The translations under genes were made by a program, and so were the position numbers. From Rothia nasisuis (GTDB lineage Bacteria; Actinomycetota; Actinomycetes; Actinomycetales; Micrococcaceae), in contig NZ_CAKMSB010000009.1 of assembly GCF_928381405.1 (NCBI RefSeq), forward strand, positions 1 through 64,000: a DNA stretch of 64,000 nt. The letters run 5' to 3'. The notes under the pieces were generated by a model. That model saw only the letters and a program-made list of their open reading frames with translations, was not told where the DNA came from and searched no databases. This document shows positions 32,320 to 42,285 of the stretch, piece by piece. The number at the start of each line of letters is the position of its first letter. Positions within the stretch are counted from its first letter, which is position 1.

Positions 32320-33252
32320 CTAATCGGCAAGTTGCGCTCTCACCCACTCAATGATTCGCTCCCAGACCGTATCACTGGCATAGATAGCGGCGTCTGCGTG
32401 CTCAGCTCCCCCAATCATGGTCAGTTCGGTGGGAATCTTAGCCGCCGAGAGGGCCCGGTGGGCCGCAACCGACTGGTTGGGTGGTACGCAGGTATCACCC
32501 GAACCGTGAAGGTAGTAGACCGGGGCATGAACACGTTCACCTGTTGTCTGGGCTGTGCGGGCGTAATCAATCGGGTGGGCCTTGGCCCAGTTAATTTCTG
32601 CTTGCGAACCTGCCGGAGCCGGGTAGGTCGAGCCAAGCAGGCGCCACTCGGCGCCGTCGTCCTCGGGGTGATCCCGGGGAAAGCCCCAGGCGACGCGGTC
32701 ATCAAAGATTGTACGCAGGTCGCTGACTCCGTAGATAGAGACTGCGCAGCGTGCGGACGCATTCGGCTGCCCCTGCATAGCGCGGGCAGCGAGCACAGGG
32801 GCTGAGAGCCCTTCGAGATAGGGCTCCTGGAGGTGGCCTGTAGCGGCGGCCAGCTGGACCAGGTGCCCTCCGGCTGAGCCGCCTGCCAGGGCTATGCGGG
32901 CCGGGTCGATGTTGAAGTCTTGTGCCCTGGCTTTGAAATAGCGGATGGCGGTTTTGAGGTCGTTGATTTGTGCGGGGAAGAGAGCCTCGTGGCTGAGGCG
33001 GTAGTTGATGGAGGCAGTGGCAAAGCCCGCGTGGGCGAAGCGCTCACGCACCCGATGTAGGCCGTTATCGGCGAGGAGGAAGGAGGATTTGTCGCCAAAC
33101 CGCCAGGCGCCTCCGTGGACGTAGATGAGTAGGGGCGCGGGCTGGTGACTTTCACAGGCAGTCGCGGGAGGGTAGAAGTCGTAGTCATGGGCAGGGTTGG
33201 TGGTGCCTGCGTAGTTGCCTGTGAGGTTAGGGGTGATGGGCTGCACGCTCAT
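32320..33252 (-). CDS. Alpha/beta hydrolase, esterase/lipase-like
   Basis: 310 residues with the oxyanion motif [11 protein letters not shown] (about residue 45), the nucleophile elbow [15 protein letters not shown] (about residue 130), and a late Asp/His pair in [10 protein letters not shown] and GGAEHADA. This resembles the hormone-sensitive-lipase/BD-FAE group of esterases. No signal peptide, so it is cytoplasmic. The substrate is unknown. Likely monocistronic. Confidence 0.85.
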
Positions 33253-33322
33253 GGTTGTCCCTTGGCTGGTATGTTTGGTGCGTCCTTGCTGAGTTCTACT
33301 GTAGCGGGTTTGGGCTGTGCGT

Positions 33323-33351
33323 TTGGGTTAGGGGCTGGGGTTTCTGATAAA
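33323..33351 (+). promoter_or_regulatory. Candidate promoter of tRNA-Arg
   Basis: TTGGGT at 33323-33328 and GATAAA at 33346-33351 are separated by 17 bases and lie about 30 bases upstream of the mature tRNA 5' end. Confidence 0.45.
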
Positions 33352-33382
33352 GTATGTGGAGTCGAACCCCTGGTTTGATGTT

Positions 33383-33455
33383 GCCCTCGTAGCTCAGTGG
33401 ATAGAGCACCAGTTTCCGGAGCTGGGTGTCGAAGGTTCGAATCCTTTCGAGGGCA
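33383..33455 (+). tRNA. tRNA-Arg (anticodon CCG)
   Basis: A 73-base tRNA. Acceptor stem GCCCTCG pairs with CGAGGGC. The D arm contains GCTCAGTGGATAGAGC. The anticodon arm is CCAGT-TTCCGGA-GCTGG with anticodon CCG, and the T arm is GAAGG-TTCGAAT-CCTTT. The discriminator base is A and the 3' CCA is not encoded. It reads CGG codons. Confidence 0.95.
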
Positions 33456-33515
33456 CAAAAAGAGAAGGTATGCCAGAATGCGCGAAGCGCTGGCATACCT
33501 TCTCTTTTTGTGCCC
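33451..33515 (+). repeat. 26-bp perfect inverted repeat sharing the tRNA 3' end
   Basis: Bases 33451-33476 and 33490-33515 are exact inverted copies around a 13-base loop. The left arm begins inside the tRNA (the last GGGC of the acceptor stem plus the discriminator), so the trailer transcript can pair with the acceptor strand. The right arm contains CTTTTTG, so it can act as a terminator for the tRNA. Confidence 0.9.
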
Positions 33516-33619
33516 GGCGTGAAGAAAGGCCCCAGTGGGGCCTTTTAGCCGGCTAAACATAAGCAGAGCCAGAATGCGCGAAGCGCTGGCGTACCTTCTC
33601 TTTTTGTGCCCGGCGTGAA
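33472..33619 (+). repeat. 52-bp direct duplication downstream of tRNA-Arg
   Basis: Bases 33472-33523 are repeated at 33568-33619 with one mismatch (A at 33495 versus G at 33591). The unit holds the loop and right arm of the inverted repeat plus CGGCGTGAA. The second copy has no left arm. Confidence 0.9.
33525..33546 (+). terminator. Rho-independent terminator downstream of tRNA-Arg
   Basis: AAAGGCCCC (33525-33533), loop AGT and GGGGCCTTTT (33537-33546) form a classic terminator between the two copies of the 52-bp repeat. Confidence 0.8.
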
Positions 33620-33641: not shown

Positions 33642-33697
33642 CCGCACTTATTCTGATTTAGCCGCAACTAGTTGCGGGTTTTTCAGAATAAATGCGG
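33642..33697. repeat. Nested palindromic terminator element A
   Basis: Outer arms of 15 bp (33642-33656 with 33683-33697, one mismatch that can wobble) enclose the perfect 16-base palindrome CCGCAACTAGTTGCGG, followed by GTTTTTC. It is a near copy of element B at 34448-34503. With the tRNA and its repeats it fills most of the 510-base gene-free stretch from 33253 to 33762; the remaining bases show nothing else. Confidence 0.85.
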
Positions 33698-42230: not shown

Positions 42231-42285
42231 ACCATCTAAATCAGAAATACCCACCTAGTTGGTGGGTATTTCTGATTTAGATGGT
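42231..42285. repeat. Perfect 25-bp palindromic terminator element D
   Basis: Arms 42231-42255 and 42261-42285 are exact inverted copies around the loop TAGTT. It is the most complete member of the C/D type and ends the MBL-HIT transcript 13 bases past the HIT stop. The rest of the 42129-42298 gap shows only a short CAGCGT/ACGCTG inverted repeat. Confidence 0.9.

Follow-up and report, generated by a model that had tools for sequence, protein, structure and literature searches.

The analysis of the window, the whole 64-kb stretch of DNA under study, showed that its tRNA-Arg(CCG) gene runs into a palindromic repeat unit that, among the genomes searched, was found at three tRNA genes only and within a single Rothia group (R. 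nasimurium and its relatives). The full locus comprises the tRNA end and left arm, a core hairpin, a right arm, a terminator-like hairpin, a linker, a second core and a second right arm. We regard it as an evenly balanced proposition that these loci represent a small family of palindromic repeats on three tRNA 3′ ends, whose arms are re-matched by template switching or conversion.

The tRNA-Arg(CCG) gene was located at 33383-33455/6 (+) by ARAGORN and by Rfam (RF00005, 67.3 bits), and at the gathering score Rfam reported the tRNA alone at this locus. Two microRNA families and STnc540, listed at a relaxed threshold, were far below their gathering scores and were taken as chance matches. The original prediction of a perfect 26-bp inverted repeat starting within the tRNA-Arg acceptor stem was confirmed by the repeat search: the left arm (33451-33476, +), made of the tRNA 3′ end and trailer, and the right arm (33490-33515, +), its exact reverse complement, are 26 nt each, 100% complementary and separated by a 13-nt loop (33477-33489, +). 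As read from the sequence, the hairpin and the tRNA share the last four acceptor-stem bases, GGGC (33451-33454), and the discriminator A33455. The loop and the first base of the right arm together form the core T-GCGC-GAA-GCGC, an inner 4-bp stem with a GAA loop, which is conserved in the relatives. No longer perfect inverted repeat with a loop of 3-20 occurs in the window; in five mononucleotide shuffles of the window the longest was 9 to 11 bp. The runner-up at 42231-42285, with 25-bp arms and a loop of 5, is probably a terminator. A 103-aa ORF lies antisense to the tRNA (33249-33560, -); ORFs antisense to tRNAs are often misannotated as proteins.

Downstream, a second, terminator-like hairpin absent from the original prediction was identified at 33514-33552 (+) from the sequence, the RNA fold and the relatives. 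Its outer stem, CCGGC...GCCGG, encloses AAAGGCCCC-agt-GGGGCCTTTT. The hairpin was not picked up by the terminator consensus scan because it has only 4 T. It is also present between units at other loci, where the outer stem is sometimes altered yet paired (CTGGC/GCCAG). A linker (33553-33567, +), identical in genomes G002 and G047, leads to a second, partial unit (33568-33619, +), found by the repeat search, with a core and right arm and without a left arm. The predicted downstream duplication of the loop and right arm was thereby found, with 51/52 identical positions (98%) relative to positions 22-73 of the 74-nt query and a start-to-start spacing of 96 bp. An inverted repeat with 28-nt arms of 82% complementarity (33642-33697, no strand given), detected by both the repeat search and the terminator consensus scan, is probably an older terminator of the same intergenic region, separate from the unit.

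When the window's genome (G000) was searched with the 74-nt query, one other locus of any length was identified, directly 3′ of tRNA-Leu(TAA); one further match of 14 nt was due to chance. Many unrelated copies genome-wide, the pattern that the original prediction had set against itself, were not found, and the sole other copy stands at another tRNA. The Leu(TAA) locus has a left arm starting from the tRNA 3′ end, a core, a right arm, a terminator-like hairpin and a partial second unit. Its arms differ in sequence from those at Arg(CCG), and here too the right arm corresponds to the end of its own tRNA. A broken IS110-family transposase (L008:5068-5649, +), with two model pieces in separate ORFs, lies ~100 bp past this unit. 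Among the 50 distinct tRNA-plus-trailer sequences compared (from 52 tRNA matches in G000), a long repeat starting inside the tRNA was present only at Arg(CCG) and Leu(TAA), at 26 bp each, and the next best were of 11 bp (tRNA-Ser GGA) and 10 bp (tRNA-Asp).

Strong model matches were present in 11 of 35 Rothia genomes (G000, G002, G005, G011, G012, G014, G020, G023, G040, G045 and G047) and absent from the other 24. In the carriers, the unit occupies tRNA-Arg(CCG), tRNA-Arg(CCT) and/or tRNA-Leu(TAA), with 31 of 33 loci filled (three tRNA genes in 11 genomes); the empty ones are Arg(CCT) of G000 and Leu(TAA) of G023. All 11 carriers, and none of the other 19 genomes, had the unit among 30 Arg(CCG) loci, and 10 of 30 Leu(TAA) loci had it; unit numbers are subject to the possible miscalling of palindromes in short-read assemblies. 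The G020 units sit on a 2.44-Mb contig. In genome G011, an additional tRNA-Leu(TAA) gene that differs from the first lacks the unit (L166).

Model R1 gave no strong match in a sample of 393 further genomes from the class, under strict filters by which weak matches are lost. Weak R1 matches in three of these genomes (best E 1.8e-4) were set aside by eye as terminator-like or probably coding DNA. Five unit-free Rothia genomes, G004 and G018 among them, had weak matches at loci with no tRNA; the matching stretches read, from the other three, resemble terminator-type palindromes. The core pattern occurred in at least 117 stretches of genome contigs; among the matches listed, 11 were within 400 nt of a detected tRNA, six of them with titles (two each from R. 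nasimurium, Candidatus R. avicola and another Rothia). An 8-kb R. nasimurium locus (L244) had two motif matches with no tRNA detected nearby, and the other 105, judged by tRNA proximity only, were taken as chance matches. Three matches to the core pattern were found in viral contigs. A phage or plasmid origin was rejected after 20 of 22 plasmid and 20 of 46 phage records were checked, with matches confined to 1-91 of the 268-nt query, that is, to the tRNA and a few bases at most. No description of a tRNA-anchored Rothia unit was found in open-licence PMC papers, which is weak evidence of absence.

A single origin of the carriers was considered and not adopted: the argS tree, from which 4 of the 34 argS genes found were left out, groups ten carriers in a supported clade (100/100), with G023 weakly placed (47/75, one group). 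The argS gene adjoins the Arg(CCG) locus in G000 and may itself have recombined.

Across the loci, conservation covers the core T-GCGC-GNA-GCGC and, in the second hairpin, the GGCGT...AGCC frame, and does not extend to the arms, which are variable. Despite this variation, each right arm complements the trailer and tRNA end of its own locus. In the arms of the first units, counted over all 31 loci, there were 732 Watson-Crick pairs, 5 G-U pairs, 11 other mismatches and 11 indel positions. In a set of 18 units (22 rows minus duplicates), 97.5% of the outer-stem cells were paired, a figure that leans high because the set includes neither the decayed Leu units nor Arg(CCT) of G005. In the same set, 19 of 25 pairs had changed on both sides; there were 67 double-changed cells, compared with 11 unpaired cells and 8 with a one-sided change, 6 of which lie at the outermost pair, and the inner core stem had no double changes. 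The covariation score was reached by 0 of 500 shuffles and the number of pair types by 7 of 500, and sliding the arms by 1-3 columns gave far lower scores. The loops of 41 of 47 GCGC-n-GCGC cores fit C-GNA-G. The core is clearly reversed at Arg(CCG) of G014 and Arg(CCT) of G005, and by degenerate match only at two G023 loci; the flipped cores may represent as few as one or two events.

Stems were imperfect at 11 of the 31 loci, and several at Leu(TAA) were badly decayed. Perfect stems were present at 15 of 17 loci with two or more cores versus 5 of 14 with one (p = 0.007), or 3 of 12 single-core loci when G023 was omitted (p = 0.001); these p-values, and the one given below, are only indicative and overstate the case because the loci are related. 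As perfect stems are commoner where there are two or more cores, this suggests that an additional arm is used as a template, or else that single units are old relics.

The comparison of individual genomes showed that in some pairs, and not as a general rule, all of the arms had changed in concert. Between G000 and G047 at Arg(CCG), the three arms differ at 5/25, 5/25 and 6/27 positions, and the core (0/15), terminator and linker (0/52) and second core (0/19) are identical; tested as 15/75 in the arms versus 0/86 in the remaining 86 nt, this gave a Fisher p of 4.6e-6. At Leu, G005 and G047 differ at 7/24, 7/24 and, in the third arm, 2/24 positions, with 2/15 in the core and 2/56 in the terminator and linker. 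The opposite pattern was seen at Leu between G002 and G047, where the first two arms are identical (0/24 and 0/24) and the terminator and linker differ at 9/57. The terminator and linker also vary between G000 and G020 at Arg(CCG) (22/54) and between G047 and the others at Arg(CCT) (7-8/61), and since they do so in some genome pairs, whole segments have also been exchanged. The arrays are mixed: in G012 the first arms are of type A and the distal arm is of type B, in G002 it is the reverse, and G020 has a third arm type beside the tRNA with two type-A-like distal units. No intermediate between types A and B was seen in the loci compared. Clustered paired changes without one-sided intermediates, the pattern looked for as a sign of template switching, were observed in several genome pairs, not in all. 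Such changes may have begun with recombination that brought in a diverged arm.

The unit's spread between tRNA genes and species is indicated. At Arg(CCT), G005 has a unit with Arg(CCG)-type arms. By argS, G000 lies well apart from the other nine members of the carrier clade, with 71-89% identity to their upstream flanks over full 300-column windows and 56-75% in the short window nearest the tRNA (upstream windows only, the downstream flanks having large gaps in most pairs). Its terminator and linker are nevertheless identical to those of G002 and G047 (0/52), and its 74-nt unit to that of G012. Because parts of the unit are identical though the upstream flanks have diverged, the comparison points to a recent exchange of a short tract, to which constraint on the unit could contribute.

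Several tRNA genes beside the unit are themselves altered. In nine carriers (L136-L144), the acceptor stem of tRNA-Leu(TAA) reads GGCCCTA / TGGGGCT-A, compared with GCCCCTA / TAGGGGC-A in G000, G041 and G042; a rewriting of the tRNA end is possible. In the five carriers, besides G005 and G023, whose whole tRNA-Arg(CCT) was read (L087, L093, L096, L100 and L103), the T-arm differs from that of G000 and the non-carriers G017, G039, G046 and G048, as if the 3′ part of the tRNA had been replaced. At the G005 locus (L090), a further tRNA 3′ half lies ~110 nt downstream of an intact tRNA-Arg(CCT) and is itself followed by a core-inverted unit. By eye, base 68 of the neighbouring tRNA-Arg(CCT) has changed from A to G opposite U5, as it has in the non-carrier G039, and the neighbouring tRNA-Leu(TAA) has G1-U72 and U6-G67 pairs. 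On this reading, the tRNA stems, unlike the arms of the unit, would have changed partly through G-U pairs.

No enzyme among Y1 transposases, reverse transcriptases and IS110 was found to track the unit across the 35 Rothia genomes. Y1 transposases were present in three genomes, all carriers but only 3 of the 11 and not G000, with a TnpB-like ORF beside them by eye. Repeat scans of the surrounding stretches identified no unit-like palindrome around any of the three Y1 genes, which appeared IS605-like by eye, and mobilisation by RAYT/IS200 was rejected. Reverse transcriptases above the cut-off occurred in three genomes (one carrier) and IS110 in four (one carrier, the broken copy beside the Leu unit of G000); as neither tracks the carriers, both were rejected as the mover.

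The mechanism that we propose would keep the palindrome perfect at the level of DNA. A replication or repair polymerase crossing the palindrome would allow the nascent strand to fold back at the core, and the folded strand would then copy one arm from the other by template switching; alternatively, gene conversion would match the arms. The right arm would in this way be re-keyed to whichever tRNA end and trailer stand on its left, with the second right arm as a possible further template. Copying of the unit between tRNA genes and species would probably proceed through recombination in the common tRNA ends. When transcribed, the unit would form the pre-tRNA trailer and then the terminator, and any effect on tRNA maturation would be secondary. 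Fold-back would be favoured by the core, since a GNA loop with G-C pairs is very stable as DNA; GNA loops closed by C-G are described as very stable DNA mini-hairpins (PMC4686876). As reported by Monttinen and Loytynoja (2022; PMC8794818), template switching in replication at quasi-palindromes can produce perfect stems, change several pairs at once and invert the loop, and creates and maintains hairpins with multi-base paired changes. Those authors hypothesise that a paired change together with loop inversion is the strongest support; in their rRNA data this combination showed no enrichment and was very rare, at 6 of 9,931. The paired arm changes and flipped cores of the Rothia unit fit such arm copying. 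Paired changes would also be expected from selection for an RNA hairpin, and the excess of perfect stems at multi-core loci is not required by template switching alone.

The principal alternative is that the trailer hairpin is a functional RNA, selected as a terminator, an RNase III site or a brake on RNase Z, with compensatory mutation preserving its pairing. Under this account, which we consider doubtful but worth serious weight, the pairing retained across diverged species and the occupation of nearly all carrier loci would be expected, as would the very stable predicted fold. The predicted minimum-energy structure places the acceptor 3′ strand in the long hairpin and not in the cloverleaf (z -8.6 and -8.8), and when a longer stretch was folded, the left arm paired with the second right arm. 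The suggestion that the trailer can pair with mature tRNA sequence was to this extent borne out, on thermodynamics only, and co-transcriptional folding could favour the tRNA. Because the acceptor 3′ strand is drawn into the hairpin in the predicted fold, delayed 3′ processing of the tRNA is physically reasonable. The scarcity of G-U pairs in the arms (5 of 748 aligned positions), the tolerance of flipped cores and the presence of the hairpin at only 2 of the 50 tRNA sequences of G000 speak against RNA selection. The decay of 11 of 31 copies, worst at Leu(TAA), and the absence of the unit from most of the genus (24 of 35 genomes) argue against an important cellular role.

A dedicated mobile element, in the form of a miniature cassette moved by a hypothetical recombinase, in which each new copy enters beside the tRNA and replaces the old left arm, seems unlikely to us. 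It would account for homologous units at three tRNA genes, for the Arg(CCG)-type arms at Arg(CCT) of G005, for proximal and distal units that are unlike in G020, G005, G012 and G002, and for the terminator and linker that G000 shares with G002 and G047 across diverged upstream flanks; however, Y1, reverse transcriptase and IS110 are each missing from most carriers, and recombination between alleles can also yield mixed arrays. The original prediction had also raised the scar of a lost element. The idea of a tRNA-associated element survives in spirit, given the three tRNA 3′ ends and the apparent movement, and that of an ordinary island scar is not supported, as no integrase was recognised among the neighbours (ORFs of three loci by eye; Pfam applied to 8 proteins of the window, L008 and L199). 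In the corresponding explanation, integrative elements once used these three tRNA genes and the units are what remains of their att sites. The 3′ ends of tRNA genes are classical integration sites, and the second tRNA 3′ half at Arg(CCT) of G005, a direct repeat with the hairpin behind it, and the altered T-arm and acceptor stem in carriers would suit it. An att duplication is a direct repeat, but the repeat of the tRNA end at the window locus is inverted, and together with the lack of a recognised integrase this leaves the att reading highly improbable. A bolder version of our own proposal, which we offer as speculation with little likelihood attached, is a mobile palindrome that seeks out tRNAs and has no transposase of its own. 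This ~170-bp double-hairpin cassette would spread among tRNA genes and species, re-key its arms by fold-back DNA synthesis to the tRNA 3′ end at its new site and sometimes rewrite the acceptor stem, as in the altered tRNA-Leu(TAA) ends of nine carriers.

Paired changes in stems are usually taken as proof of a selected RNA structure. The Rothia unit, in which as many as three arms carry paired, multi-base changes, G-U pairs are few and some cores are flipped, points to a DNA-copying process that mimics this signal. The 31 loci in 11 genomes provide a compact natural series on how palindromes become perfect and decay, and the stem of the neighbouring tRNA genes may be rewritten by the same process.

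Among known systems, the attC sites of integrons have variable complementary arms and a folded core with extra-helical bases, and occur in tandem. The Rothia unit resembles them in its variable complementary arms around a folded core and in its tandem units, but no gene cassettes lie between the units. Relative to intrinsic terminators, the second hairpin is terminator-like with 4 T, the 26-bp palindrome has no T tail, and the strong matches of the palindrome in the genus are tRNA loci.

The GTAG/CGTC REP elements and REPtrons are likewise short bacterial palindromic repeats, some with bulged stems, that form dimers and arrays; as described, REP stems are 5-13 bp with a GTAG or CGTC tag, in families of few to thousands of copies (PMC3733652). 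The Rothia unit, in contrast, has ~25-bp stems at three tRNA genes, with no consistent tag and no RAYT found. When the loci were inspected by eye, no consistent GTAG or CGTC tag was present at the hairpin end: the GTAG seen in Leu right arms complements the tRNA end, and GGCGTC stands behind some of the right arms only. No Y1 gene (3 of 35 genomes) was flanked by the unit in the stretches searched, which is not final against a REP relationship because REP elements can persist without a RAYT. Dispersed copies as in REP, usually tens or more, were not found in G000, whose two loci are both at tRNAs. The unit also resembles the mitochondrial repetitive hairpin-forming or double-hairpin elements, small palindromes that are single or in tandem and seemingly mobile; the sponge elements described have conserved stems and variable loops, whereas the Rothia unit has a conserved core and variable stems (PMC2800124).

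The likeness to template-switch or quasi-palindrome mutation includes multi-base paired changes, perfect stems and loop inversion (Monttinen and Loytynoja 2022; PMC8794818). The cases presented there are mammalian microRNA loci and the rRNA genes of many organisms, bacteria included; the Rothia unit differs from them in belonging to a bacterial family of repeats with its anchor in tRNA genes, and in that as many as three arms change together. It can be placed among palindromic repeats as a variant notable for its tRNA anchoring and for the joint rewriting of its arms.
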